Below, piece by piece: positions 1 through 18,098 of a DNA stretch of 20,507 bases. The translations under genes and the position numbers were made by a program. The notes below the pieces were generated by a model, which saw only the letters and a list, made by a program, of their open reading frames with translations, had not been told where the DNA came from and searched no databases. Source of the stretch: a virus; the IMG/VR virus record IMGVR_UViG_3300007734_000441, positions 1 to 20,507 of that record; one strand, 5' to 3'. Each line of letters opens with the position of its first letter. Positions within the stretch are counted from its first letter, which is position 1.

Positions 1-420
1 TTTATCAAATGCGTACATCTGATATAATTTAGAACTAGCCCATATCTTTGGTTGTTTTTCTAATCTTTTCAATTCATCTATTATACCATCGTATGCTTGT
101 TCCAGCTTTTGGTCAGTATCCGTATCATATTCTTCTTCTATCGTATCGTAATGAGGATTTAATTCAGTATTTCTTTTGTCCACTTTTATACGATTAAGAA
201 AACGAGATTTGATAAATGAGTGGCAATACATTAGATTAAATGAATTGAGATAATATAATTGTGGATTACATTTTTCTGCTAAGTAAAGATATAATTCACT
301 AACTAATTCTTCTGCTATATCTCTATTCTTTGATATATTAAATGCTACAGCTTTTAACCAACCATCATGCTGCTTAAAAAGTATTTCTAATCGTATTGTA
401 TTTTCTTTACACTTACTCAC
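1..420 (-). CDS. Sigma-70 region 2-like protein (3' truncated by window edge)
   Basis: The frame is open for 140 codons and runs off the left edge, so the C-terminus is missing. It opens directly after an in-frame TAA at 421-423, so the first codon is GTG at 420-418; the purine-rich stretch AAGAGAG precedes it. It overlaps the end of the upstream gene by eight bases. Residues 17-50 (HDGWLKAVAFNISKNRDIAEELVSELY...) look like sigma region 2.1-2.2: a hydrophobic helix, then an acidic AEELV helix equivalent to the AEDLVQE of extracytoplasmic-type sigma factors. Residues 92-103 are acidic, and 124-137 (KIWASSKLYQMYAF) may begin a region 4-like segment. Small sigma-like proteins of this form are frequent in phages of Bacteroidota. 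It could be a transcription factor, or a helix-turn-helix terminase small subunit; the missing end would decide. Confidence 0.55.
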   Translation of the reverse strand, partial: MSKCKENTIRLEILFKQHDGWLKAVAFNISKNRDIAEELVSELYLYLAEKCNPQLYYLNSFNLMYCHSFIKSRFLNRIKVDKRNTELNPHYDTIEEEYDTDTDQKLEQAYDGIIDELKRLEKQPKIWASSKLYQMYAFDK

Positions 421-640
421 TTATCTCTCTTACAAATTTTCTTAGTTCTTCAACACAACTTCCCCAATGGCGTGCTGATGATTTACATGAGCAAGGTTGA
501 GTTACTTTTTGTCCTCTGATACGATTACACCAATTCCAAAAAGGAGTCATTAGATGCTCAGGTAAAAACGATTTAATACCTTCTAAGTGAGTCTTTAATT
601 CATTAAATTCTGATTCTGATAAAGGTTGATATTTCTCCAT
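413..640 (-). CDS. Small cysteine-motif protein, 75 aa, function unknown
   Basis: Starts at ATG 640-638, three bases after the preceding gene's stop. The N-terminal half is a predicted amphipathic helix. The C-terminal half carries C38, C50, C52 and C62 in the pattern IRGQ..TQPCSC.SSARHW..CVEELRKFV, which could bind a metal ion. I recall similar short PCxC...LRxFV proteins in phages of Bacteroidota but know no function for them. It lies in a tight cluster (HNH, 65-residue protein, this gene, sigma-like gene), each overlapping or nearly touching the next, so one transcript is likely. Confidence 0.65.
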   Translation of the reverse strand: MEKYQPLSESEFNELKTHLEGIKSFLPEHLMTPFWNWCNRIRGQKVTQPCSCKSSARHWGSCVEELRKFVREISE

Positions 641-643
641 AAT

Positions 644-841
644 TTATATTTTAATTCCATTACATTCCCCATCATACTGAGGATTAGTAAGACGATTGAG
701 CCATTGCTTTCTTTCACAACATCCACATGAATCCGAATGAAATATTGTTTTTGCAATCAAAAGCGCTAGTCTTTCACCAAATCCGAATGTTATTACGTGA
801 ATTAGAGCTTCAACCCAATCGCCTATTTTAATCCATTTCAT
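644..841 (-). CDS. Small protein with CxCC motif, 65 aa, function unknown
   Basis: ATG at 841-839 lies inside the last codons of the HNH gene (14-base overlap), suggesting translational coupling. Residues 8-33 form a largely hydrophobic helix that might touch the membrane but has charged residues within it. It is followed by a cysteine cluster (C39, C41, C42) in the motif SCGCCERKQWLNRL, with C60 near the end. The GCCxRxxxLN pattern recurs in small phage proteins. A metal-binding or membrane-associated accessory role is possible; the sequence shows nothing more specific. Confidence 0.62.
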   Translation of the reverse strand: MKWIKIGDWVEALIHVITFGFGERLALLIAKTIFHSDSCGCCERKQWLNRLTNPQYDGECNGIKI

Positions 842-1214
842 ACCTTACTAATTTTCTTTTTCTTTCATACATAGCTAACATATTCTCTGAATGTGTTACT
901 AATCTTAAATTAGTTATATTATTGTTATGTTTATTTCCGTCTATGTGGTCAATTTCTAAACCTGATTTAATTTTATCTTTGAAAGTTTCCCATACTAAAC
1001 GATGCCCACGTCTCCACAATCTTTTCTTATTAGGTCCTTTACCAACGAACAATCCATAGTACAGGTATCCGCTTGGATGTGTGCGAGGTTTTACTAATCT
1101 CATTTCACCATTAGGGTTGTAACGATATGATATTTTAGTACTCCATATAGTACCATCTTCACAAGCGTAATAGTTATCTAATCCTTTAATTTCTTTGAAT
1201 TCTTTATTTGCCAT
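828..1214 (-). CDS. HNH homing-type endonuclease with NUMOD4 domain
   Basis: This is a compact free-standing HNH nuclease. Residues 6-26 (FKEIKGLDNYYACEDGTIWS) match the NUMOD4 DNA-binding module found at the N-terminus of many homing nucleases. Residues 71-104 hold the HNH core: HR at 71-72, EIDHIDGNKHNN at 88-99 and NLR at 102-104. D89/H90 are the expected metal/catalytic residues and N99 the central Asn. At 128 residues the length is normal for this family, so it looks intact. It is the first gene after the terminator at 1265-1292 and overlaps the next gene by 14 bases. Such nucleases spread by cutting related phage genomes; whether a nearby gene is its target cannot be told from here. Confidence 0.9.
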   Translation of the reverse strand: MANKEFKEIKGLDNYYACEDGTIWSTKISYRYNPNGEMRLVKPRTHPSGYLYYGLFVGKGPNKKRLWRRGHRLVWETFKDKIKSGLEIDHIDGNKHNNNITNLRLVTHSENMLAMYERKRKLVRYEMD

Positions 1215-1264
1215 TTTGTATTGTTTTTGTATTAATAAATATTAAGTAGTTTTAAAAACCGCAT

Positions 1265-1292
1265 AAAAAAGGCCCGCTGAGAACAGCAGGCC
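1265..1292 (-). terminator. Rho-independent terminator
   Basis: On the minus strand GGCCTGCTG and CAGCGGGCC pair over nine positions (one G-U) around a UUCU tetraloop, followed by a run of six T (plus-strand A at 1265-1270). It ends minus-strand transcription coming from the 1402-2196 gene group, or the putative small RNA at 1293-1386. On the plus strand there is no T run, so the direction is clear. Confidence 0.85.
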
Positions 1293-1372
1293 GTGGGTAA
1301 AATAAATTACAGGGGCTGGAGAATACATAAGTAAAAATGGCAGTTTAGACAATATATCAAAGTGCCCCTGTA
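1293..1372 (-). ncRNA. Putative structured small RNA (non-coding gap 1215-1401)
   Basis: The 187-base gap between the HNH gene and the 61-residue gene has no convincing ORF. It contains a perfect 9-base inverted repeat, TACAGGGGC (1308-1316) and GCCCCTGTA (1364-1372), enclosing 47 bases. Just upstream on the minus strand is a copy of the AATTGTTAAA element (1377-1386), and just downstream is the terminator at 1265-1292. Promoter-like element, long closing stem and terminator together suggest a transcript of about 100 nucleotides. I see no tRNA features (no T-arm GTTCGA) and recognise no riboswitch class. It could instead be a structured 3' UTR of the 1402-1587 gene. Confidence 0.35.
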
Positions 1373-1376
1373 TTAG

Positions 1377-1401
1377 TTTAACAATTGTATATAAAAATAT
1401 A
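1377..1401 (-). promoter_or_regulatory. AATTGTTAAA element, copy 1 (candidate phage promoter)
   Basis: Reads AATTGTTAAA on the minus strand at 1386-1377, preceded by an A/T-rich stretch. Over 25 bases it matches the copy at 18839-18863 with one difference. Here it lies just downstream of the stop codon of the 61-residue gene and upstream of the inverted repeat and terminator, with no start codon nearby. Promoter function is inferred from the full set of six copies. Confidence 0.45.
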
Positions 1402-1587
1402 TTAATTACTTTGTTCATCTTTTGGTTTAATTACTTCTAAAAATTCCTTATTCTGTCTATCAGCTGCTGCCTGAAGTAATGCTCCCATATCCATATTCTC
1501 TAATACAAACATCATTTCATCATGCGTTATTTCCATTGGAGATTTCTTTAAGAGTTCTTCCAAATTGTATTTTTTATTTTCTGACAT
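1402..1587 (-). CDS. Hypothetical small acidic protein, 61 aa
   Basis: ATG at 1587-1585 lies within the end of the 110-residue gene (14-base overlap), as expected for a coupled operon. The protein is helical and rich in Glu, Lys and Met, with no Cys, signal peptide or membrane segment. I do not recognise a family. The last gene of a five-gene cluster (2196 to 1402) of short overlapping ORFs, it is followed by a candidate promoter element and a terminator. Arrangement and strand suggest an accessory phage gene. Confidence 0.6.
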   Translation of the reverse strand: MSENKKYNLEELLKKSPMEITHDEMMFVLENMDMGALLQAAADRQNKEFLEVIKPKDEQSN

Positions 1588-1906
1588 TTTCTTTTAGTTT
1601 AGTTTTAGTAATTTCAACTTCTCTGTTGAGAGCATCTAATTCAATTGTTTGTAATTCTTTTTGTATATGCTGAGTAGGTTTAATAGTTGCTATGTACTGC
1701 CTCATTTCTTCTTCCAACAATCTTTTCTTCTGAGAGTATTCCCATGCTTCTTTCACAGCTTCATTATCTATACCTTCAAACTTTGGTAATGATTCGTTTA
1801 ACCACTTTCCTAATTCTGAGTGTATATGGATAGCATCTTCTCTATCCAGCTCTTTTACTATTGTAAGAAGTAATGTGTTCTTACCCTTTGTTAGATTTAT
1901 TCCCAT
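1574..1906 (-). CDS. Hypothetical protein, 110 aa, coiled-coil C-terminus
   Basis: Residues 1-20 (MGINLTKGKNTLLLTIVKEL) form a short beta-prone stretch. From about residue 35 the protein is a continuous charged helix with heptad-like spacing (EEEMRQYIATI, KELQTIELDALNREVEI). There are no cysteines or catalytic-looking clusters. It overlaps the preceding 49-residue ORF by 26 bases and the following 61-residue ORF by 14. Family not recognised; a small oligomeric or scaffold-type accessory protein is all that composition suggests. Confidence 0.6.
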   Translation of the reverse strand: MGINLTKGKNTLLLTIVKELDREDAIHIHSELGKWLNESLPKFEGIDNEAVKEAWEYSQKKRLLEEEMRQYIATIKPTQHIQKELQTIELDALNREVEITKTKLKENVRK

Positions 1907-2030
1907 TTGTTTCGTTTTTTAATTGTTTATATTTTTCTTGCAATCTTTTTTCTAATTGCTTTTGTTCTTCCAGCTTTGCTGCATAAACTAAATTTCTTGT
2001 ATTTGAATAACTTTTTACCTTTGGATGCAT
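1881..2030 (-). CDS. Hypothetical small basic coiled-coil protein, 49 aa
   Basis: A short ORF from ATG 2030-2028 to TAA 1883-1881. The protein begins MHPKVKSYSNTRN, continues with a strongly helical Lys/Glu/Gln segment (residues 16-40, including EEQKQLEKRLQEKY) and ends in an Asn/Lys-rich tail. It starts one base after the stop of the 54-residue ORF and overlaps the 110-residue gene by 26 bases, so it fills what would otherwise be a gap in the operon. Support is positional and compositional only. Confidence 0.5.
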   Translation of the reverse strand: MHPKVKSYSNTRNLVYAAKLEEQKQLEKRLQEKYKQLKNETNGNKSNKG

Positions 2031-2031
2031 T

Positions 2032-2196
2032 TTATTTTTTTATTATATGTTCAAACATTTTATCAAATTCTTCTTCTGATATACCTGATTTACCAAGCAT
2101 TTTATTTGGTTGTAAAATTTCAATAGAAGCTGAAATAGGAGTTTCCACTTTTGATTCAGGTTCCATATATTTTTCAAAAAGGCTTTGAAAATCCAT
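2032..2196 (-). CDS. Hypothetical small acidic protein, 54 aa
   Basis: ORF from ATG 2196-2194 to TAA 2034-2032. The protein starts MDFQSLFEKYMEPESK and ends in a helix (SEEEFDKMFEHIIKK) with an acidic-then-hydrophobic pattern that could be a peptide-type interaction helix. It starts six bases after the stop of the DUF6291-like gene and ends one base before the next ORF, which supports it as a real operon member. No family recognised. Confidence 0.55.
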   Translation of the reverse strand: MDFQSLFEKYMEPESKVETPISASIEILQPNKMLGKSGISEEEFDKMFEHIIKK

Positions 2197-2202
2197 AACT
2201 TA

Positions 2203-2673
2203 TTATTTTAAAATTGAATCTAATTGACTGTGTATATTATTTAATTCTAATTCAGTATATTTTTTATTTAATCTCTGTTTGACTGCTATTGCTTTACTGT
2301 CTTTATCTATATCTCTAGCTTTATCTTTATCTTTATCTTTATCTTTATCTTTATCTTTAAGGTTTTGTGGGTTAGCTTGGGTTTCCGAAAAACCCACTGG
2401 GTTATTTGGGTTTTGTTGGGTTAATTTAGGTCTACCACCTTGCTTTCCGTTCTCTCTATTTGCTTTTACTTTTCTTTCGTAATTTTCAGATTGTACGATG
2501 AAATCTCTTTTTATAGCAAGAAAAATACCCATAACTAATGGGTCTGTGATAGTCGGTTCTACACCTTTTTGGAATAGACCTATTGATTTTATTAAGATAC
2601 CAGCTTGCTCATCTGATAAGTTATCCATCAATTCAAAATGCGATTGATAGATGATTGTGTGTTTGTTTGCCAT
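2203..2673 (-). CDS. DUF6291-like phage protein with (KD)n repeat
   Basis: Residues 4-70 fit the DUF6291 pattern: an initial aromatic strand (IIYQSHFELMDNLSDEQAG), a helix ending in GLFQKGVEP, then an IFLAIKRDFIVQSENYERK segment, followed by the diagnostic NGKQGGRPK at 75-83. DUF6291 proteins occur in phages and prophages of Bacteroidota and Firmicutes, often near replication genes; a replication-initiator role is often supposed but I do not know it to be proved. Residues 106-118 are six Lys-Asp pairs plus Lys, encoded by a perfect hexanucleotide repeat, forming a charged linker before a short C-terminal helical domain. The gene has a strong Shine-Dalgarno site and probably its own host-type promoter at 2784-2815. 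Confidence 0.75.
   Translation of the reverse strand: MANKHTIIYQSHFELMDNLSDEQAGILIKSIGLFQKGVEPTITDPLVMGIFLAIKRDFIVQSENYERKVKANRENGKQGGRPKLTQQNPNNPVGFSETQANPQNLKDKDKDKDKDKDKARDIDKDSKAIAVKQRLNKKYTELELNNIHSQLDSILK
2319..2359. repeat. Hexanucleotide tandem repeat (CTTTAT)6
   Basis: Six uninterrupted copies of CTTTAT plus five bases of a seventh. On the coding (minus) strand this is (AAAGAT)n and encodes alternating Lys-Asp in the DUF6291-like protein. Because the unit is six bases, slippage would change linker length without breaking the frame. Confidence 0.95.
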
Positions 2674-2680
2674 TTTTATT

Positions 2681-2687
2681 CTCCTTT
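2681..2687 (-). promoter_or_regulatory. Strong ribosome binding site of the DUF6291-like gene
   Basis: Minus-strand AAAGGAG followed by AATAAAA and the ATG at 2673-2671, a textbook Shine-Dalgarno sequence and spacing. Most other genes here have only A-rich leaders, which is normal for Bacteroidota, so this site stands out and fixes the start. Confidence 0.7.
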
Positions 2688-2721
2688 ATAATAAATAGTG
2701 TGTTTCCAGAAAAAAGCTAAA

Positions 2722-2748
2722 AATAAGGGGAAACTTTTGTGTTCCCCC
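2722..2748 (-). terminator. Hairpin with T-rich tail, terminator or attenuator
   Basis: On the minus strand GGGGAAC and GTTTCCCC pair (one bulged base) around ACAAAA, followed by TTATTTTT. It would end transcripts of the 63-residue gene. Since promoter 2784-2815 lies upstream of it, the hairpin also falls in the roughly 100-base leader of the DUF6291-like gene and could act as an attenuator. The 129-base gap 2674-2802 otherwise holds only the ribosome binding site and that promoter. Confidence 0.6.
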
Positions 2749-2783
2749 TATCCATATGAACATCTAAAAAACACAAATTTATA

Positions 2784-2815
2784 CAAATATACGAAATTAT
2801 TTTTACTTTTCCAAA
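2784..2815 (-). promoter_or_regulatory. Bacteroidota-type promoter P2
   Basis: Minus-strand TTTG (2815-2812), 20 bases, then TATATTTG (2791-2784), an exact fit to the TTTG/TAnnTTTG consensus of Bacteroidota vegetative sigma factor. It overlaps the last codons of the 63-residue gene. Transcription should start near 2777 and reach the DUF6291-like gene after a leader of about 100 bases. Confidence 0.7.
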
Positions 2816-2994
2816 TTTTTTTCTTTAATTAATCCAACACTTTTCATCCATTCTTCTGTACGCTTATTACGTTCCATCAGTTCATCATATCCCTTTTGGA
2901 TTTCAGCGTAAAGTGTTTGTAATTTAGCTTCCTCAATTACTTGAGCCTGTCTTTCCATTTCTCGGAGTTGTTTAGTCAACATAGTTTTTATCAT
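2803..2994 (-). CDS. Hypothetical small coiled-coil protein, 63 aa
   Basis: A continuous charged helix from about residue 6 to 50 (LREMERQAQVIEEAKLQTLY, then QKGYDELMERNKRTEEW) with heptad-like spacing; no Cys or membrane segment. The start at ATG 2994-2992 lies only about five bases from the expected start site of promoter P1 (3006-3037), so the message is close to leaderless. It is isolated between two promoters and two hairpins, i.e. transcribed alone from a strong host-type promoter, the arrangement of an early-expressed phage gene. Family not recognised. Confidence 0.65.
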   Translation of the reverse strand: MIKTMLTKQLREMERQAQVIEEAKLQTLYAEIQKGYDELMERNKRTEEWMKSVGLIKEKNLEK

Positions 2995-3005
2995 TTGTTA
3001 CAATA

Positions 3006-3037
3006 CAAATATACGCAAAACTACTTAATTTTCCAAA
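3006..3037 (-). promoter_or_regulatory. Bacteroidota-type promoter P1
   Basis: Minus-strand TTTG (3037-3034), 20 bases, then TATATTTG (3013-3006), exact consensus, followed closely by the start codon of the 63-residue gene. Spacing and -7 sequence are the same as P2, and both share the surrounding context (TTTGGAAAA... and CGTATATTTGTAT). The duplicated palindromes at 3073-3150 lie just upstream and could bind a regulator. Confidence 0.75.
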
Positions 3038-3045
3038 CTTTTTAT

Positions 3046-3150
3046 GGTATTTTTTAGTGCTTCTGACGTAAGTAATTGATAATCAATAAGATTTTTTTGG
3101 GTATTTTTTCACAAGTTATCCACATTTCCATAACTAATTGATAATCAATA
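3046..3150. repeat. Duplicated palindromic unit with DnaA box (operator or origin candidate)
   Basis: The non-coding stretch 3038-3156 contains two copies of GGTATTTTTT (3046-3055, 3100-3109), each followed by a copy of TAATTGATAATCAATA (3073-3088, 3135-3150). The latter contains the palindrome ATTGAT-A-ATCAAT. Between the second GGTATTTTTT and the second palindrome is TTATCCACA (3116-3124), identical to the Escherichia coli DnaA-box consensus. Palindromes in duplicate beside a strong promoter suggest a regulator site; the DnaA box and A/T-rich content suggest a replication origin. Both readings are inference. Confidence 0.55.
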
Positions 3151-3154
3151 GCAT

Positions 3155-3177
3155 AAAAAAACCCACAAGAAGTGGGT
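3155..3177 (-). terminator. Rho-independent terminator after the 90-aa gene
   Basis: Minus-strand ACCCAC-TTCTT-GTGGGT followed by a run of T (plus-strand A at 3155-3161): a six-base perfect stem with five-base loop. It lies 35 bases past the stop of the 90-residue gene and closes the 3936-3212 pair. Confidence 0.8.
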
Positions 3178-3211
3178 AAAAATGGATAATTTTGGCAGGT
3201 ATCACATTTTT

Positions 3212-3484
3212 TTATAAAAGTATAAAATAATCTTCTGATTTTCTCAATGCTGAAATCTTTCTAGCATTTACTAAAAAAGGGAATATCTCTTTGTATTGTG
3301 TGAAAGAAAACTTCTTATCAGCTCTAACCTGTTTAAGAATTTCTTCCATTCTTTTCTCAATCAAATCAGGTTGTTCTAATTCAACGATATAATCTTCTAC
3401 TTCTTTTAGAAAAGCGTTTGTTTTATCTTTTCCAGCTTTCTGAAGTATTCCGAATTCTTCTTTAAGGAATTGTTCGTAATCCAT
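3212..3484 (-). CDS. Hypothetical helical protein, 90 aa
   Basis: The ATG (3484-3482) overlaps the TAA of the preceding gene (TAATG), indicating coupled translation. The protein is mostly alpha-helical, rich in Glu, Lys and Phe, with aromatic-hydrophobic clusters (QYKEIFPFLVNA, SEDYFILL) and no Cys. No signal peptide or membrane span. Family not recognised. Being coupled to the Cys-motif protein, the two may be made in equal amounts. Confidence 0.65.
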   Translation of the reverse strand: MDYEQFLKEEFGILQKAGKDKTNAFLKEVEDYIVELEQPDLIEKRMEEILKQVRADKKFSFTQYKEIFPFLVNARKISALRKSEDYFILL

Positions 3485-3936
3485 TAGCTTCCGTATTTAG
3501 AACGTATCATTCCACAAACTTTCTCAGCAATTTCTTTACTTCCGTATCTATCAGTTTGCTCTAAAACGCATTCATCCCAAGGATATTCTTGTAAATTAAC
3601 ACCAGCTTCTTCTAATTCCATTTCTATTTTTGCTAATGGTACACAATTAGGTACTTCTCTACCATCTACAACCTTTGTACCAACTTGTACATAATTTTCC
3701 CAGCATGGGTCATTTGGTCCTTTCTCTAATGGTGCTAAGTTAATACCTCTGAATTCAGTATCGTATTTGATTCTAGCCATTGCTTTCTTATCCATAGATT
3801 TGATTTTTTTCATATTTTCTCTACGATAGGTTGAATAACATATAGCTAAACTTTGTTCTTGTGGATACTCTCCACCTATTTCACTCATACATCTTCCGAT
3901 ATATGAATCTTCAGTTGTTGGTTTTGGTATTGGCAT
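3484..3936 (-). CDS. Three-module cysteine-motif phage protein
   Basis: Three short modules. Residues 11-39 read YIGRCMSEI..EYP.EQSLAICYSTYR (C16, C33). Residues 73-102 read GPNDPCWENY.QVGTK..DGREVPNCVP (C78, C98). Residues 117-149 read EYPWDECV.EQTDRYGSKEIAEKVCGMI (C123, C141). The Cys pairs are evenly matched, one pair per module, so disulfides or shared metal sites are possible. I know such modules as tails or inserts on portal, protease and head proteins of phages of Bacteroidota; here they stand together as a separate protein, and the fused protease at 5632-7017 lacks them. A virion-associated role is inferred. It is coupled to the 90-residue gene and diverges from the plus-strand endonuclease gene. 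Confidence 0.65.
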   Translation of the reverse strand: MPIPKPTTEDSYIGRCMSEIGGEYPQEQSLAICYSTYRRENMKKIKSMDKKAMARIKYDTEFRGINLAPLEKGPNDPCWENYVQVGTKVVDGREVPNCVPLAKIEMELEEAGVNLQEYPWDECVLEQTDRYGSKEIAEKVCGMIRSKYGS

Positions 3937-3940
3937 TTTA

Positions 3941-3972
3941 TTTGGTTTTTTAAGTTATTTTTCGTATCTTTA
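3941..3972 (+). promoter_or_regulatory. Bacteroidota-type promoter P3 (plus strand)
   Basis: TTTG (3941-3944), 20 bases, TATCTTTA (3965-3972): one mismatch from TTTG/TAnnTTTG, with exactly the spacing of P1 and P2. Start expected near 3979, about 14 bases before the ATG of the GIY-YIG gene. It sits in the 56-base divergent gap 3937-3992; I see no clear promoter for the minus-strand gene there. Confidence 0.55.
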
Positions 3973-3992
3973 CGTTATAATAATAACAATCA

Positions 3993-4478
3993 ATGTATTA
4001 CATATATCACATACCTGGCATTAAAATTGGATGTACTACCAATCCAAAGAGTAGAGTTGAAAAAAAACAAGGATATAAAAAATATGAAATATTAGAAACA
4101 CATACTGATATTAATATAGCATCTACAAGAGAAATTGAATTGCAAAAACAATATGGATATCAAATTGATGTAACACCATATTCACAAAGTTATAAATGGG
4201 CTACATCGGGAAATCCATCAGTTAAGCCAATGATAAAAGCAGGAAAAGAATGGATTATGAATAATAAAGAAAAACATTCTGAAAATGCTAAATTAGGTGG
4301 ACTAAAACAAGGACCGATTACAGCTAAAAAGAATGTAGAAAGTGGACATATATCTAATTTAGGTAAGATAAATGTAAATACAGTATATACATGTCCTCAT
4401 TGTGGTAAAGTTGGTAAATCATCTGGTATGTTTACATGGCATTTTGATAGATGTAGAAACAAAATTGTTAAATATTAA
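3993..4478 (+). CDS. GIY-YIG-type homing endonuclease with C-terminal zinc finger
   Basis: Residues 1-60 resemble the divergent GIY-YIG nucleases common in phages: YIYHI (3-7), KIGCT (11-15), R21, then STREIELQKQYGYQID (44-59), where a Glu is expected to hold the catalytic metal. Residues 97-125 contain Gly/Lys-rich repeats like NUMOD3-type DNA-contacting modules (AKLGGLKQGPIT...). Residues 134-154 form a likely zinc finger, CPHC with H150 and C154. The order nuclease, linker, zinc finger matches T4 I-TevI in outline. It lies on the plus strand between minus-strand blocks and eight bases before the sigma gene, typical of a mobile free-standing nuclease. The first YIG-like motif is weak, so activity is not certain. 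Confidence 0.75.
   Translation: MYYIYHIPGIKIGCTTNPKSRVEKKQGYKKYEILETHTDINIASTREIELQKQYGYQIDVTPYSQSYKWATSGNPSVKPMIKAGKEWIMNNKEKHSENAKLGGLKQGPITAKKNVESGHISNLGKINVNTVYTCPHCGKVGKSSGMFTWHFDRCRNKIVKY
4463..4472 (+). promoter_or_regulatory. AATTGTTAAA element, plus-strand copy before the sigma gene
   Basis: AATTGTTAAA spans the last codons of the GIY-YIG gene and ends 14 bases before the ATG of the sigma-like gene. It is the only plus-strand copy and sits in front of a plus-strand gene, so orientation follows the gene as in the other copies. Confidence 0.45.
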
Positions 4479-4486
4479 ACGTTACA

Positions 4487-5332
4487 ATGCCTAGGAAGAA
4501 GAATCCAAATAACAACTATTTTAACCAAGAGGTAGAGGATGCCGTATGTGCATACCTTTCTACCGATAACCAAATTGAAAGGGAAAAGCACTTTCGTATA
4601 ATCTATCCTGCCCTTTGTAAGATAGCAGAGGTAATGTACCACAAAGTTAAATTCTCTTATTCCGATGATGATAGAGAAGATGTAATGGCGAACTGTGTTG
4701 CATGGTTGGTAGAGAAAATGCCAATGTTTAAATGTGGTATGGGTACTAAAGCATTCTCATACTATACAGTTACTGCACGTTTCTATTACATTCAGTTAGC
4801 AAATAAGAATTACAATTATTTTAAAAAGAATATCCCACTATCTTCTATGACACATAATTGGGATGTAGAAAATAGTGATAGAGAAGATGAATCAAAAGCT
4901 AATTCAGCTGCTTTATTGCATAGATTTATTGAGTATTGTTACCATAATATTGATATTATGTTTCCAAGCAAATTAAAATCTTATGCCAATATTATTTTAG
5001 ATAATCTTTCAAATTATGAAGAAATAGAAGATTTTAGAAATCGTAAAATACTTCAGTTTATTTATAAAAGTGGTAATATTATAGAAAGGAAAAAAACTAA
5101 TATTAATAAAACACTTAATATAATGATTTCTCACTTAACACTATTTAAGAAAAGATTTTTAGCAGGAAATGATTCTTTAGAACTTTGTAAGAAAGAATAT
5201 CTTACTGAAGAAGAAGTTCAAATAGTAAGGGATACAATTGTTGTTGGAAGAAAGAACAATGGTACTACTGCTTTAGCAAGAAAGTTTGGTGTTGATATAA
5301 AAGTTATATACGATTGTTTAAAACCTACTTAA
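4487..5332 (+). CDS. T4 gp55-like phage RNA polymerase sigma factor
   Basis: Residues 36-115 carry a sigma region 2-like pattern: a helix (RIIYPALCKIAEVMYHKVKF), an acidic helix (DDREDVMANCVAWLVEKM) and MFKCGMGTKAFSYYTVTARF with conserved-looking aromatic residues. The same order (FSGYTQ..., helix, F-D..AF.YiT) is seen in T4 gp55, the late-transcription sigma subunit. Residues 176-225 are helical, and 260-279 (TTALARKFGVDIKVIYDCLK) form a good helix-turn-helix. The protein probably redirects host RNA polymerase to phage promoters. It stands on the opposite strand from almost all other genes, shares a promoter with the upstream nuclease and has its own AATTGTTAAA copy. Its 3' end overlaps the convergent 105-residue gene by eight bases. 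The family match is from memory of patterns, not an alignment. Confidence 0.65.
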   Translation: MPRKKNPNNNYFNQEVEDAVCAYLSTDNQIEREKHFRIIYPALCKIAEVMYHKVKFSYSDDDREDVMANCVAWLVEKMPMFKCGMGTKAFSYYTVTARFYYIQLANKNYNYFKKNIPLSSMTHNWDVENSDREDESKANSAALLHRFIEYCYHNIDIMFPSKLKSYANIILDNLSNYEEIEDFRNRKILQFIYKSGNIIERKKTNINKTLNIMISHLTLFKKRFLAGNDSLELCKKEYLTEEEVQIVRDTIVVGRKNNGTTALARKFGVDIKVIYDCLKPT

Positions 5333-5642
5333 CGTAAAAGGTTCTACCATTTTGTACAATCTTAGTCACATTCTTTAGGACAATTGTACGATAATCACCA
5401 TCAGTTTGTGAATAATAAATCATATAGTTGTAAGGTGCTCTCCAATAGATAGTACCACCCATTGCTCTACCACCAGGCCCTGGTACTGAATACATATCTC
5501 TTACAATATTACTACCATCTAACTTTGTAGCATAGATACGAAAAGGTGTGCCTGTTAAGGTCATCTCTCTCATTTGTTGATAAGAGATTTCAGTTCTTTG
5601 TGCAAACCATTGTAGTTTTTTATATGCAGTGCTACTGTTCAT
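5325..5642 (-). CDS. Small protein of structural operon, 105 aa, function unknown
   Basis: ATG 5642-5640 overlaps the end of the protease gene by 11 bases; the gene ends in TAG. Residues 45-93 carry a distinctive beta-rich stretch: IVRDMYSVPGPGGRAMGGTIYW, then APYNYMIYYSQTDGDYRTIVL. The YSQxDGxYRTIxL pattern suggests a small SH3- or KTSC-like barrel. I believe related proteins occur in other Bacteroidota phages but know no function. As the last gene of the protease block, and convergent with the sigma gene, it may be a minor virion or assembly protein. Confidence 0.6.
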   Translation of the reverse strand: MNSSTAYKKLQWFAQRTEISYQQMREMTLTGTPFRIYATKLDGSNIVRDMYSVPGPGGRAMGGTIYWRAPYNYMIYYSQTDGDYRTIVLKNVTKIVQNGRTFYVK

Positions 5643-7017
5643 ATATTTCTTTCACAACTTTAATATGATTATCCATAAATGAAGTATCGTGCTCCATTCC
5701 TACAATTTTATCAACTTCTTCCATAATATCTTTAAAATCATCAACCAAAAGGACTACTTCTTCGTAATCATGTTGAGATGCAATTCCAGCTTTTAATATT
5801 TCTTCTTCTTTACGGAATACATTATCAGCAGCTTGTGCAGCACTTCTAATCATACCTTCTGTATCTTCATCAACTTCCATTGTTGTAAGATGTTCAAATA
5901 ATGCTGATGCAGTTGGACACATATGAAAATATCTTGTATGATAACCAAATACATTTACGTTTGGTTTCTCAATTGCAAGTGTTGCTTTTCTTTTGTATTT
6001 ATTTTTACCCTTTGCTGCTTCACCAGGGTATGTTGAAGATACTGAAGGTTGTGATTCAGATTCTTCTAATAATCCTAATTCTCTTAATTTATTTCTACTA
6101 TATCCTAACCCAGCTTTACCACCCCATAAAAGAAATGAAATTACTGCACAATCATTTTGTGAATCTGCATTATCATAATATCCTTCAGCTCTACTTAAAT
6201 AGCTGTACATTCTTTTTATAGTTTCAACTGAAATAGGTCTTTTTTGTGCTAATTGTTGTGCACGAACTTTACCAACTGGTGTGGCACATTTGTTACCATT
6301 CTTTTCGTTTAGTTCTATACCTCTCTTAGCGTTATTAGCTACACCATCACCATAATCAGAATAAGATTCCATTTCTACCTTTTTCTTTGTCTTATAGCGA
6401 TTATCTCTCTTAATCAATGCTCTTATCTCAGAAAGGATTAGAAGCGCTTCTTGCTCCTCTAATTCATTTAGAATGTTATCTTCTGAGAATAACATAGATT
6501 GTTGTACTAAGTTATGTCCAAATAAACCTTCTATTGAGAATCCTTTAACCTCACCAGTCTTTACATAGTTATTCCAAATATCCTCATTATCAACCTTAAA
6601 CGTCCCCATCCATGTACCAACCGGAACACTAAGTCCATATACAGCTGATTTATCTTTAGTTCTACTTTCCACAATCCATGACTCAACAAGCGAAATATCA
6701 TCTACTTTATTTTTATGTTCAATAGTTGTATTTGAAACATATTTCTTTTGAAGATACATTTCTGATAATCTCTTAATAGTTTCAGGTTTGAAATAAACAA
6801 AATACTGCTCACCCATACCATCTATTCTTAATATCTTTTTATCAGGCACCAATATAGGTCCCATCACCAATCTTTGTTCATCTGATACTGCTTGGAATTT
6901 AACTTCTTCCTTGTCAAAATAAACAAAATTAGCTTCAATAGCAGGTTCTTCCACCAACGATATGGCAAAAACCTCATCTATATTTTCATCTTCAATTACT
7001 AATTCGTATAATTTCAT
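5632..7017 (-). CDS. XkdF-type prohead protease fused to two extra domains
   Basis: Residues 15-170 match the XkdF family of prohead serine proteases: FAISLVEEPAIEANFV (17-32), QRLVMGPILVPDK (48-60), TIEHKN with candidate catalytic His101, PVGTWMGTFKV, and EVKGFSIEGLF with candidate Ser161. This enzyme trims scaffold and capsid proteins during head maturation. Residues 219-315 form a second domain (YSDYGDGVANNAKRGIELN, KRMYSYLSRAEGYY, ISFLLWGGKAGL) recurrent in phage head proteins of unknown role. Residues 352-460 are a helical domain (FGYHTRYFHMCPTASALF, YEEVVLLVDDF). At 461 residues it is longer than simple XkdF proteins. It follows the tape measure gene, an unusual place for a protease, behind an AATTGTTAAA copy, and ends in TAG. 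Confidence 0.8.
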   Translation of the reverse strand: MKLYELVIEDENIDEVFAISLVEEPAIEANFVYFDKEEVKFQAVSDEQRLVMGPILVPDKKILRIDGMGEQYFVYFKPETIKRLSEMYLQKKYVSNTTIEHKNKVDDISLVESWIVESRTKDKSAVYGLSVPVGTWMGTFKVDNEDIWNNYVKTGEVKGFSIEGLFGHNLVQQSMLFSEDNILNELEEQEALLILSEIRALIKRDNRYKTKKKVEMESYSDYGDGVANNAKRGIELNEKNGNKCATPVGKVRAQQLAQKRPISVETIKRMYSYLSRAEGYYDNADSQNDCAVISFLLWGGKAGLGYSRNKLRELGLLEESESQPSVSSTYPGEAAKGKNKYKRKATLAIEKPNVNVFGYHTRYFHMCPTASALFEHLTTMEVDEDTEGMIRSAAQAADNVFRKEEEILKAGIASQHDYEEVVLLVDDFKDIMEEVDKIVGMEHDTSFMDNHIKVVKEIYEQ

Positions 7018-7025
7018 ATTACTAA

Positions 7026-7035
7026 TTTAACAATT
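7026..7035 (-). promoter_or_regulatory. AATTGTTAAA element before the protease gene
   Basis: Fills most of the 20-base gap between the tape measure stop and the protease ATG, ending eight bases before the ATG. If it is a promoter -10 region, the protease message would be leaderless or nearly so. Confidence 0.45.
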
Positions 7036-7037
7036 AA

Positions 7038-9284
7038 TTATCCATTTGTTCCACCACTAAACGTAGCTGCTCTAGTTGTACGGCGGTCTAAAGCTTGCTG
7101 GGATGTCACATCTCCGCTAATGACGTAGGCTCTAATGGGTCTATTTTGTGCAGCACCAATTGTTTGTGCTATTTGTGCACCAGGTGTTGCTTGTCCTTGC
7201 GTACCAACAATTTGTGGAATACCAGTTTGTGCTCCAGTATTTACACCAGGCACAGTTGGTGCTGCTCCTGCTGATTTAGGTAGATTTGCTCCACCACCGC
7301 TTGAAGGAGTTCCACTATCCGATGATTTAATTTGTTGTATTGCTTTTATACCAGCTGCTACTGATGATGCTATACTCAATGCTGCTGTTGCAGTGTTGAT
7401 AGCAACCCAAGGTAAACCACCGGTCAATGGTGATGCTGCAACTGCTTTCGCATTTGCAATACCAGTGTTTACAATTATCTTGCCAATTGCCGCTGCCTGT
7501 TCTACAATAACACCAGCTATTGCCAATTTCTTATTCTTTCCAGCAATCTCTTTTAAGAACGAACCAAATCCACTTGCTAAATCTAAGTAAGCAGTTTGTA
7601 ATTCTGCTTTAGCTTCCAACTCAGCCATATCAATCTGCTTACGTTCTTCTGCAGCTTGTCTTACAATTTGTGTACGTTGTGCTTCAGTTAGGCCGGCTTG
7701 AGAAAGTAATTGTGCTTCTTTCTCATCTATAATTGCTCTCCTTCTATCAAATGATGTACCTAATGCTTCAGCTTCTTGGTCTAATAACATTAATTGTTCA
7801 TCCAATGTCTGAGTTCTTGCATCTCTACGTGCTTGCTCAGCATCAATTACTATTTGAGTTCTTTGTGCTTCAGTAAGTGCTGTATCTGAAAGAAGTAATT
7901 GTTCTCTCTCATTTATAAGTTGTAACTTCTTATCTAAGTTATCGGATTCGTTTTGTAATAGTTGTTTGTATGAGTTTTCATTAGCAAGAACTTTATCATC
8001 TAATCCTTTCTTAAACTCATCATACTCTTTTTGTTGTTTTTCTTCTCTCTTTTTCTTAGCTTCTTCATCAAACTTTGTATTAATTTCAGCAACATCTCTA
8101 TTGTATGCTTCTAATACAGCTGTTCTATCAGTTATACCTGCTTTCTCTAATGCTGCAATATCTTCATTAAGTTTCTGACCTCTTTTGTATATCTCTTTAT
8201 CTCTATCTTCTAATCCACTTAAATAAGCTTCAGTTAAAATTTTGTTAGCAGCTTCTAAATCTTTTAATCTTTGTTCTTCTAATTTTTTAGCTTCTTCTCT
8301 TGCTTTCTCTCTAGCTTCTTTAGCTTTTTCTGCTCTTTCTTTTGCAGCTTCTTTTTCTGCTGCAGTCATTCTCTTAGTACCTTCTTCAAAACTCTTACTA
8401 GCTTTATCATAGCCAGTAGTTGTAGCATCTACAAAAGAATCTTTAATTGCTACACCAGTTTTATAAACCTCATTACCAATCTTAGCCATTCCACCAACAA
8501 CTGCGGTAGATGCCTCATCAAATCCTTGCTTTATTAAGTCTAAATCAAAAGTAAATACACCTTTAATTATTTTACCTGTACCAGCTGCTACATCAGCAAG
8601 TGTTTTAAATCCAATTACTAAGTTGTTAATTACAAATTTATAAACTGCAATTTGTGCTTCTAATAGGAATTGTAATGCTGCTGCTAATACACCTACTGTA
8701 GTAGAAACACCTTTCATTACCTTATCATTCTCTAAAAGTGCTAATGCGAAATCTATTACAACATTTGCAATAGGTTCAATTACAGCAAACAAACCATTCA
8801 TTATCTTTTCAAATGCTTCGGTTAGTTTGTTCAATTTAGCTTGTCCTTCTTCAGTACGGCTTAGAGATTCTTTAAATGCTGCTATTGCACCTACTATGGC
8901 TAAAACTGCACCTAATGCAACTTTAAATCCTAAAGAAAATTTATTTAATCCAGTATTAAAAGATTGAATACCACTACCAATCTGTCCCAATGGACCTGGC
9001 AATGCGGCTAACTGGTCATCAAACTGACCGGCTTGGAAGTTTACTCTTTCCTGAGTATCATTTAAATCATCTAATTTCTTCCTTAGATTTTCAAACTCAG
9101 CACTACTTTGTTGTCCTTCATCCGCAAGTTTTTGCATTTGAATGGTAGTTTCTCTGATTTGAGTACGAAGTGACTTAAACTTACCGCCCGTTCCTTGAGC
9201 TTCATTACCTAAGTTTTCTACCTGGTCACCACCTTTAACTTCGGTTTCTACTACTACATTATATGTGGTTGTATTATCGGCCAT
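7038..9284 (-). CDS. Tape measure protein
   Basis: At 748 residues this is the longest gene in the window and has the standard tape measure build. A helical N-terminus with coiled coils (41-80) precedes hydrophobic helices at about 119-137, 166-184 and 196-216. A very long charged coiled coil covers 290-560, rich in Lys, Glu and Ala. A hydrophobic Ala/Gly segment lies at 585-650, and a Gly/Pro/Ala-rich tail ends in AYVISGDVTSQQALDRRTTRA, a C-terminus I associate with tape measure proteins of Bacteroidota phages. LTEAQRTQIV occurs at 470-479 and 532-541, a 62-residue internal repeat. Tape measures set tail length at about 0.15 nm per residue, giving roughly 110 nm. The start overlaps the 48-residue ORF by 11 bases. 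It lies after the tail-tip genes rather than before them. Confidence 0.9.
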   Translation of the reverse strand: MADNTTTYNVVVETEVKGGDQVENLGNEAQGTGGKFKSLRTQIRETTIQMQKLADEGQQSSAEFENLRKKLDDLNDTQERVNFQAGQFDDQLAALPGPLGQIGSGIQSFNTGLNKFSLGFKVALGAVLAIVGAIAAFKESLSRTEEGQAKLNKLTEAFEKIMNGLFAVIEPIANVVIDFALALLENDKVMKGVSTTVGVLAAALQFLLEAQIAVYKFVINNLVIGFKTLADVAAGTGKIIKGVFTFDLDLIKQGFDEASTAVVGGMAKIGNEVYKTGVAIKDSFVDATTTGYDKASKSFEEGTKRMTAAEKEAAKERAEKAKEAREKAREEAKKLEEQRLKDLEAANKILTEAYLSGLEDRDKEIYKRGQKLNEDIAALEKAGITDRTAVLEAYNRDVAEINTKFDEEAKKKREEKQQKEYDEFKKGLDDKVLANENSYKQLLQNESDNLDKKLQLINEREQLLLSDTALTEAQRTQIVIDAEQARRDARTQTLDEQLMLLDQEAEALGTSFDRRRAIIDEKEAQLLSQAGLTEAQRTQIVRQAAEERKQIDMAELEAKAELQTAYLDLASGFGSFLKEIAGKNKKLAIAGVIVEQAAAIGKIIVNTGIANAKAVAASPLTGGLPWVAINTATAALSIASSVAAGIKAIQQIKSSDSGTPSSGGGANLPKSAGAAPTVPGVNTGAQTGIPQIVGTQGQATPGAQIAQTIGAAQNRPIRAYVISGDVTSQQALDRRTTRAATFSGGTNG

Positions 9285-9433: not shown

Positions 9434-9988
9434 TTAACTATTCACATTTAACGAACCCTCTAATATCGGGCCTAAAAGTTGTATATTACACTCACCTGTG
9501 GATAAATTATAATCATTTATAGCACGAAGGTGATAATCATTCCCTCTAAAATTCACAACATCATTCAATTCCATATCAACATAGTCAGCTAATGGAATAA
9601 TTGCTGACATATTTAATAAACGAGTTCTTGGATTATAAAGAAGATTTACATAACTACTCCAATATGTTGAATATAATGAACCAGTTGGTGCTGTACCATA
9701 AACTGCTTGTTCATTATAGAATAGTAATGATTTAGAGCCATCCGTTGGAAACGAACCTGTAACTACATTGTAATTATCAAAATATGGAAATCTAGTTATT
9801 GGTGGCTTATTTAAAGTCCAAGCACTTCCAGTTGGAAAATTATAAAATCCTTGAAGATGATATTGTTCACATCCAACTTCACCATTGTAAAATAAAAGAC
9901 GTGGTTGAACTCTAGCCGGCGAATAACTCTGGTCAGAAATATAAGTTGGAATATAAATTGGTATTTTTTGTGAATTTAAAACTGGCAT
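9434..9988 (-). CDS. Tail-tip/baseplate protein, C-terminal-type module
   Basis: Beta-rich protein with no membrane span. Recognisable stretches are QPRLLFYNGEVGCEQY (28-43), TGSLYSTYWSSYVNLLYNPRTRLL (102-125) and IIPLADYVDMELNDVVNFRGNDYHLRAI (130-157). The YW..YVN.LYNPRTR then D.V.FRG..Y pattern is one I associate with the C-terminal end of large tail proteins in Bacteroidota phages. It lies in the same reading frame as the 672-residue gene, separated only by TAA AAA AAA TAA ATT, so the two genes could be halves of one ancestral protein. Likely part of the tail tip complex. Confidence 0.65.
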   Translation of the reverse strand: MPVLNSQKIPIYIPTYISDQSYSPARVQPRLLFYNGEVGCEQYHLQGFYNFPTGSAWTLNKPPITRFPYFDNYNVVTGSFPTDGSKSLLFYNEQAVYGTAPTGSLYSTYWSSYVNLLYNPRTRLLNMSAIIPLADYVDMELNDVVNFRGNDYHLRAINDYNLSTGECNIQLLGPILEGSLNVNS

Positions 9989-17144: not shown

Positions 17145-18098
17145 TTAATAGTTCTTATGGATAGCGATGTCATTACCGATACCATATTGAGTACCAGCTG
17201 TGTATCTCATCACGATTCTGTAGTTCTGAGAACCATCTAAGTTAGCCATGTCAAGTACTCTTACTTCGTTATGGTCACTCAATAAACCAGTTCCGAAGAA
17301 CAAGTTAGATTTTTGAGCTACTACCATAGCAGAAGAAGCAAGACCAGGACAGAATGCTAATTCAATACCATTGAAGTTCAATGGCTTCTCACCAACGTTC
17401 ATTTGGTTGTTGAATCCGTTTGCACCTTGTGCTCCACCAGCTAATGCTTGTTGATAAGCCTTAACTACGTTAGTAGGTACATAGATTAACAAGTCTTCCT
17501 TACCATAAACAGTTGCTGGAACTGCATCTACTAATGCATTTAACGCAGTTAATACGTTTGCAGAAGTGATAGAACCAGAAACTGAAGAAGTTACAGGAGC
17601 GTTAGTACCACCAGCTACAACTGAAGAAGATAATGCAGTGTAGATACCACCGAATTGTCCGTTAGTTGCAGAGTTACCTCTCCAAATTGATTCTTCAGTA
17701 GCTTGTGCTACTTTACCAGCTACATAGCTGATTAAGAAATCGTTGAAATCCTTTGGAATTTCATCAAATGCGCTATAGCCCAATTGTAATGCTTCCCAAG
17801 AATCAACGAACTCTTGCTTACATAATTCAAGGTTTACTTGAAGTTCTTTTGGTTCTAAGATTCTTTCAGAAAGAGCCACAGTACCAGAAGTTGTGAAATC
17901 ACAAGATGCATCGTTTACAATTGAATCAACTGCAATTCTTTGGATTACACTTTTGAACTTCACATTCGGCATGATTGTGATGTATTGATTATCCAAAGTT
18001 TTAGCTGATAACAATGCTGCTGCGATGTACTTACCTGCGAACTCACCAGCGTAGGTTGTAGTAACGCTAGGCTGTGCAAAGTTTTGTTGTTTTCTCAT
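17145..18098 (-). CDS. Major capsid protein (HK97 fold)
   Basis: 317 residues. The N-terminus begins with VTTTYAGEFAGKYIAAALLSAKTLD (11-36), which I recognise from capsid proteins of Bacteroidota phages. The body contains KFKSVIQRIAVDSIVNDASCDF, SERILEPKELQVNLELCKQEF, EESIWRG (P-domain-like spine helix and following loop), and later VYGKEDLLIYVPTNVVKAYQQAL and FNGIELAFCPGLASSAMV. The C-terminal strand GTQYGIGNDIAIHKN is typical of the HK97 fold. There is no separate long N-terminal delta domain, in keeping with the scaffold-like gene just upstream. It is transcribed with that gene (17-base spacing) and is probably the most abundant virion protein. Confidence 0.88.
   Translation of the reverse strand: MRKQQNFAQPSVTTTYAGEFAGKYIAAALLSAKTLDNQYITIMPNVKFKSVIQRIAVDSIVNDASCDFTTSGTVALSERILEPKELQVNLELCKQEFVDSWEALQLGYSAFDEIPKDFNDFLISYVAGKVAQATEESIWRGNSATNGQFGGIYTALSSSVVAGGTNAPVTSSVSGSITSANVLTALNALVDAVPATVYGKEDLLIYVPTNVVKAYQQALAGGAQGANGFNNQMNVGEKPLNFNGIELAFCPGLASSAMVVAQKSNLFFGTGLLSDHNEVRVLDMANLDGSQNYRIVMRYTAGTQYGIGNDIAIHKNY

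Follow-up and report, generated by a model that had tools for sequence, protein, structure and literature searches.

The window, that is the whole stretch of DNA analysed here, is a virus record of IMG/VR (IMGVR_UViG_3300007734_000441) 20,507 nt long, from a virus infecting Bacteroidota. It is probably a fragment, because relatives reach 31-33 kb. The genes lie mostly on the minus strand, and those recognised encode a portal protein (E=2.1e-52 to phrog_33693), an HNH protein and a DUF6291 protein. Rfam and tRNA scans of the window gave no match. A cut-off gene at 1-420 (minus strand) resembles, by likeness only, sigma-type genes of relatives. These were seen as phrog_1740 in four of 69 proteins scanned (67 mostly non-structural proteins from four relatives carrying the sites described below, plus two from the window), and as Sigma70_r2 at 2515-3084 of locus L175; besides this sigma factor, the families listed for the 69 proteins include terminase, HNH and DUF6291. 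A 281-aa gene transcribed from the opposite strand (4487-5332, plus) lacks Pfam and PHROG matches; it is matched in 6 of 10 long relatives and, distantly, in the cultured Flavobacterium phage immuto (33%).

Organization of the intergenic region

The stretch of interest separates the gene at 3484-3212 from P1 (2994-2803), and is read on the minus strand. The preliminary description, made from the sequence alone, had reported here a non-coding stretch with a promoter on one side, a terminator on the other and a DUF6291-like gene close by. All these features are confirmed. No ORF of at least 40 aa is found in the interval 2995-3211, which hosts, in minus-strand order, the terminator of the structural operon, a distal site, a DnaA box, a proximal site and a Bacteroidota sigma-A promoter, followed by the early genes. 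The intrinsic terminator (3177-3161, minus strand), identified by pattern scan, consists of ACCCACTTCTTGTGGGT followed by a T-run, and is found at the same location in relatives. The distal and proximal sites are 27-bp inverted repeats at 3130-3156 and 3068-3094 (minus strand), scoring 25.4 and 24.2 with the weight matrix described below. Their centres, 3143 and 3081, are at about -142 and -80 from the predicted transcription start (about 3001), according to the numbering used in an excerpt of PMC6847099 (T at -12). The DnaA-box match TTATCCACA at 3116-3124 is exact and lies on the plus strand, the minus strand reading TGTGGATAACTTGTG.

The promoter (3037-3006, minus strand) has TTTG at -33 (3037-3034) and TATATTTG at -7 (3013-3006). 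The two elements are about 20 nt apart and fit the Bacteroidota sigma-A consensus, given in the same excerpt as -33 TTTG / -7 TANNTTTG (PMC6847099). Next comes P1 (2994-2803, minus strand), a 63-aa ORF of no confident family, the first gene of the operon that the region would control. A second promoter of the same type at 2814-2784 (minus strand; TTGGAAAA from 2814, TATATTTG at 2791-2784) precedes the DUF6291 gene and has no site. The DUF6291 gene (2203-2673, minus strand) is confirmed by its family profile (E=1e-16). The KDKDKDKD repeat of its product was used as a search pattern and drew in many stretches without any relationship; 599 stretches matched a pattern, and 26 of them encode a relative.

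The repeated unit and its conservation

Two repeats recur in the region. TAATTGATAATCAATA, at 3073-3088 and 3135-3150, has its copies 62 bp apart, within a 20-nt repeat conserved at 95%. GGTATTTTTT is found on the plus strand at 3046-3055 and 3100-3109, 54 bp apart, within a 17-nt repeat conserved at 88%; on the minus strand both copies read AAAAAATACC, the first being the A-rich stretch upstream of the -33 element and the second adjoining the DnaA box. An exactly repeated 16-mer occurred in one of 2000 dinucleotide shuffles of 2995-3211. The repeats are genuine and exceed chance, and the duplication of units 54-62 bases apart noticed earlier is borne out. Allowing one mismatch, the full record of 20,507 nt contains two copies of the palindrome and none of the reversed control.

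Comparison with relatives, collected through three window proteins, defines the conserved unit as the 27-bp inverted repeat TAACTNRTTGATWATCAAYNAGTTA. The palindrome had been judged to have the size of a dimeric regulator site: a dimer-sized repeat it is, although the true unit is a 27-mer rather than a 13-16-mer. The core TTGATWATCAA was found 50 times in 146 loci, a count in which the two sites of the window enter twice as two of the loci are the window itself, versus 0-7 times for 14 control palindromes. Conservation in related phages is positive: among the 48 records compared, the exact core is present in 20 and the reversed control in two. A few of the 20 have arm-less cores, probably chance matches. 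A symmetric position weight matrix (PWM) was built from 31 distinct sites; six arm-less core matches at four distinct sites (L064 9673, L084/L085, L091/L093, L121 2286) were excluded, which biases the matrix towards the arms. Viral loci gave 715 oriented matches to the PWM, versus 0-12 for 20 column-permuted matrices. Weaker sites are found in the relatives G012 (12.3 to 17.9) and G038 (15.0), which were placed in neither group in the protein clustering of 31 records described below; G038 was counted as site-bearing in the wider protein comparison.

The window and the relatives G005 and G020 (L061) are arranged alike, with terminator, site, TGTGRATAACTTGTG, site, ACTTACGT and promoter in this order. 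Genes that come early after the sites encode, among others, DUF6291 in G042, where this gene is directly adjacent, and P-loop proteins with weak AAA matches in G005 and G001. The relative G002 is 72-94% identical to the window in most structural proteins. It retains terminator and promoter without the module between them, TTTTTTATGCTATT running straight into the promoter (TTTGG, TATTTTTG), and its 31 kb contain no PWM match scoring 11 or more. Since so close a relative lacks the sites and yet has both flanking elements, the module is optional.

Position of the sites relative to promoters

Sites are mostly intergenic, 7 of 125 viral sites falling within an ORF, and often begin at the stop codon of the upstream gene. 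Removal of near-identical contexts reduced the oriented sites from 808 to 260, the contexts used for the DnaA-box counts to 128 and the promoter distances from 136 to 55. Of 142 deduplicated sites, 54 are followed within 50-124 nt, on one side or both, by a strict -33/-7 promoter; no promoter was recognised at the expected distance for the other 88. Counted by orientation in the same range, 55 of 260 sites have a promoter, versus 14 of 906 control positions shifted by 900 or 1500 nt. Sixteen promoters were found at -200 to -26 of the site and two overlapped it (-25 to 49). Sites thus lie upstream of the promoter without overlapping it (55 at 50-124 versus 2 at -25 to 49), as sites of class I activators do. 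Many relatives also match both elements of the sigma-A promoter.

The distance from the -7 element to the nearest site falls within 50-93 nt in 48 of the 55 deduplicated promoters, being 67-70 in 18, 77-82 in 14, 64 in four and 89-91 in five; with 81 nt, the window is an ordinary member of the set. The two main groups are about 10-11 bp apart. Rayleigh tests, in which a 5.25-bp period was also tried, first suggested a period of 10-11 bp (reached in 0 of 3000 nulls). Once the 67-70 group is removed nothing is left of it, 2037 of 3000 nulls reaching the value. The periodicity thus depends on one distance group and strict 10.5-bp phasing was not upheld; preferred distances are what the data support.

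In four loci site and promoter immediately precede phage tmRNA genes (L238 5596-5981, L202 1665-2043, L281 9480-9853, L178 2658-3055), the distance from site to -7 being 69 nt in each. tRNA genes follow the tmRNA in all four, some kilobases further on in L281.

Distribution among viruses and bacteria

The exact extended motif is present in at least 120 IMG/VR stretches, on contigs of 4 to 482 kb. When 42 of the records were searched with a looser pattern, as many as 16 forward matches were found in one phage record, and the reversed control matched in two of the 42. The exact two-site pattern with the letters of the window had no match in IMG/VR, and no strong site was found in the parts scanned of two cultured phages encoding homologous proteins. 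G088 (L425) has seven site pairs at 465-8400, with 48 bp within a pair and a pair every 1-1.6 kb or so; none of its 14 sites has a -33/-7 promoter recognised by the strict scan. In G087 (L440) nine sites crowd into about 570 bp (17456-18029), with no recognised promoter and an array- or enhancer-like look.

A search for the exact motif in some 85,000 genomes of bacteria and archaea gave 100 stretches, and 49 of the 80 listed belong to one Microscillaceae MAG. Of 295 Bacteroidia genomes drawn, 13 have a site at one mismatch or less (control, 1). With so few positive genomes, a general chromosomal regulon in Bacteroidia was rejected. The motif thus characterises phages far more than chromosomes, the Microscillaceae MAG apart. 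The latter (Prado074, G101; 6.8 Mb) has 415 sites at one mismatch and 1208 at two (narrower centre), with none for the reversed control; among the 148 genomes of the order to which it belongs, 46 have a match when two mismatches are allowed (control, 0). The Prado074 sites listed (loci such as L293, L300 and L342) are intergenic, face in every direction and keep no particular distance from promoters. Chromosomal matches are a mixture, since some lie within longer hairpins. In the bacterial loci L360, L323, L332, L324 and L349 matches adjoin, by eye, apparent 3' ends of tRNAs; several are within a longer stem, and are perhaps tRNA terminators.

Publications retrieved with the core strings mention, in title and start of abstract, no regulatory site of Bacteroidota phages. 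No such element is described in the titles found by a wider search with the terms used in the collection searched.

Nature of the site

An inverted repeat may work as a hairpin, in RNA or in single-stranded DNA, and could be a terminator, a REP-like element or a recombination site. Covariation was evaluated at pairs 6 and 7, which are symmetric and variable, and the expected Watson-Crick fraction was derived from independent columns. The observed fraction was 0.32 versus 0.52 expected and 0.22 versus 0.35 expected in the family, 0.56 versus 0.54 and 0.19 versus 0.29 in the pattern-derived viral set; in neither viral set was it clearly above expectation at these pairs. Because paired positions do not covary, the 27-bp repeat is best seen as a double-stranded site for a protein dimer, not as a hairpin; a dimer-sized inverted repeat conserved as double-stranded DNA is what class I activators bind. 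Viral sites are moreover often followed by A-runs, and in the window family are usually downstream of a separate G+C-rich terminator. Evidence of the opposite sign comes from bacteria. Of 15 loci fetched from the Cytophagales chromosome G441, 6 have the match inside a perfect stem that extends beyond it (half-length 15-29), and in bacterial matches other than Prado074 positions flanking the core pair more often than expected (Watson-Crick fraction at pair 13, 0.68 versus 0.27). For the viral sites, disfavoured already by the covariation test, the hairpin is very improbable.

The sites are akin to those of class I CRP-type activators, as they are palindromic dimer sites placed wholly upstream of the promoter. 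In Escherichia coli, CRP is a strong activator when bound at -61.5, -71.5/-72.5 and -82.5, but has little effect from -66.5 or -76.5, as reported in an excerpt of PMC6301791. Phage sites are centred at about -66 to -69 and -76 to -81, that of the window at -80. They differ from CRP sites in having a longer, distinct motif (a TTGAT-N-ATCAA core with TAACT/AGTTA arms), in the sigma factor and the host phylum, in being often in tandem, and in showing preferred distances rather than established helical phasing. They also set these promoters apart from plain Bacteroidota sigma-A promoters, whose consensus has no upstream palindrome. The FNR/Anr box is TTGAT-N4-ATCAA. Its half-site has the same letters as the phage site, but the latter has additional conserved arms, and a central spacing of 1, not 4, in both window sites as in the sites used for the 27-bp comparison, which were preselected for that spacing.

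Activation, repression or replication

The preliminary description left two possibilities, a phage origin or an operator controlling P1. The operator half is supported, sites being upstream of sigma-A promoters in relatives and in unrelated phages alike; the origin half is less likely. The same site precedes promoters in many otherwise unrelated viruses, and is for this reason probably a docking place for a gene activator rather than a replication origin. In the window, two sites lie upstream of a canonical sigma-A promoter, without overlapping it, at a distance common in other phage promoters. We infer, at slightly better than even confidence, that this region controls the minus-strand early operon of the phage; that the 27-bp repeat is a putative activator site for this operon is a reading we hold with similarly modest preference. 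Each site would be bound, as double-stranded DNA, by a dimeric DNA-binding protein, and by analogy with class I activators such as CRP the bound dimer would activate the promoter from upstream, the distal site adding a second dimer. The operon so driven would start with P1 and continue with small genes, DUF6291 among them. The intervening DnaA box would be a separate, optional element.

The pair could also be a repressor operator, at which a phage or host repressor would loop or block the DNA and silence the early operon. Sites are indeed commonly found in tandem or in pairs, 25-65 bp apart, and pairs permit cooperative binding. Repressors, however, usually act at the promoter elements themselves, and sites overlap -33/-7 in 2 of 87 promoters within 200 nt (bins summed). 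Integrase and repressor families are also missing among the best 25 of 82 and the best 25 of 75 families obtained for the 69 proteins. Repression at these sites thus looks improbable. If replication were the main function, an initiator would occupy the palindromes, while host DnaA would be recruited by the DnaA box or pair of boxes; the A+T-rich stretch would open, the promoter would supply transcriptional activation, and an operator might coexist. The region resembles DnaA-box origins for the exact TTATCCACA, and for pairs of boxes 11 bp apart in relatives. It differs from them in having a single exact box in the control region of the window, in the lack of a skew signal and in the absence of the module from G002, whereby the module is not in all close relatives.

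The perfect DnaA box described earlier inside the second unit is exact, and lies between the second GGTATTTTTT and the second palindrome. Taken alone, TTATCCACA is weak evidence for an origin, because the window has 12 such boxes at one mismatch or less, where chance would give 8.4, and another exact copy lies at 9497. An exact box is found within 150 nt in 10 of 128 site contexts, in seven as a pair 11 bp apart. The controls gave 7 among 586 shifted windows and 7 among 348 promoters that lack a site; the association is real, in a minority of contexts. Some relatives have the exact pair, the control region of the window a single box. Both exact boxes of G027 and all three of G042 are at sites, and polymerase, helicase and primase are not among the best 25 of 82 and 25 of 75 families of the 69 proteins, which also speaks for an origin. 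A bacterial locus (L361 4824-6403, from a Verrucomicrobiales MAG), where a site precedes by about 120 nt the gene of a plasmid-type initiator of replication (RPA, E=1.7e-15), points the same way. On the other hand, 118 of the 128 contexts have no box, G001 has a site with no exact box near and G002 has neither, and large phages have many dispersed sites per genome. The GC-skew check proposed at the outset turned out uninformative. In all of 10 long relatives skew is monotonic or nearly so, tracks the coding strand and has no turning point at the site, and was therefore rejected as an origin test; the window is itself a fragment. An origin as the main role is rather unlikely.

The putative binding protein

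A phage-encoded binding protein was sought by protein clustering. In 31 related records (16 site-bearing, 13 site-less and 2 neither), the protein family best tracking the site is present in 7 of 16 and 0 of 13, respectively. It is represented in the window by the protein encoded at 1574-1906, which was rejected as the binder: none of 11 further records with sites, most of them larger, encodes it, and its structural model (mean pLDDT 55) has no defensible DNA-binding fold. BLAST comparison of the 31 related and the 11 mostly larger records found no protein shared by most site-bearing ones. Since no phage protein tracks the site across lineages, the data favour either a host protein, or a phage protein fast-changing or too divergent for BLAST. 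For a host protein in some lineages count the many sites of Prado074; against a general regulon, the few positive Bacteroidia genomes. A bolder proposal, tentative at best and rather doubtful, is that of a portable enhancer-like module. Bacteroidota phages that are unrelated and very different in genome size may each have acquired the 27-bp site on their own, and use it to bring a single DNA-binding protein of the host to their early, tRNA and tmRNA promoters. This protein would have over a thousand chromosomal sites in one lineage, the Microscillaceae MAG.

Significance

To our knowledge, little is known about how Bacteroidota phages time gene expression. A single recognisable operator, common to phages both small and very large, would give access to their regulons from sequence alone, and would help to predict early promoters in metagenomic viruses. 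The 27-bp site could moreover serve as bait for a protein on which many unrelated phages may depend.
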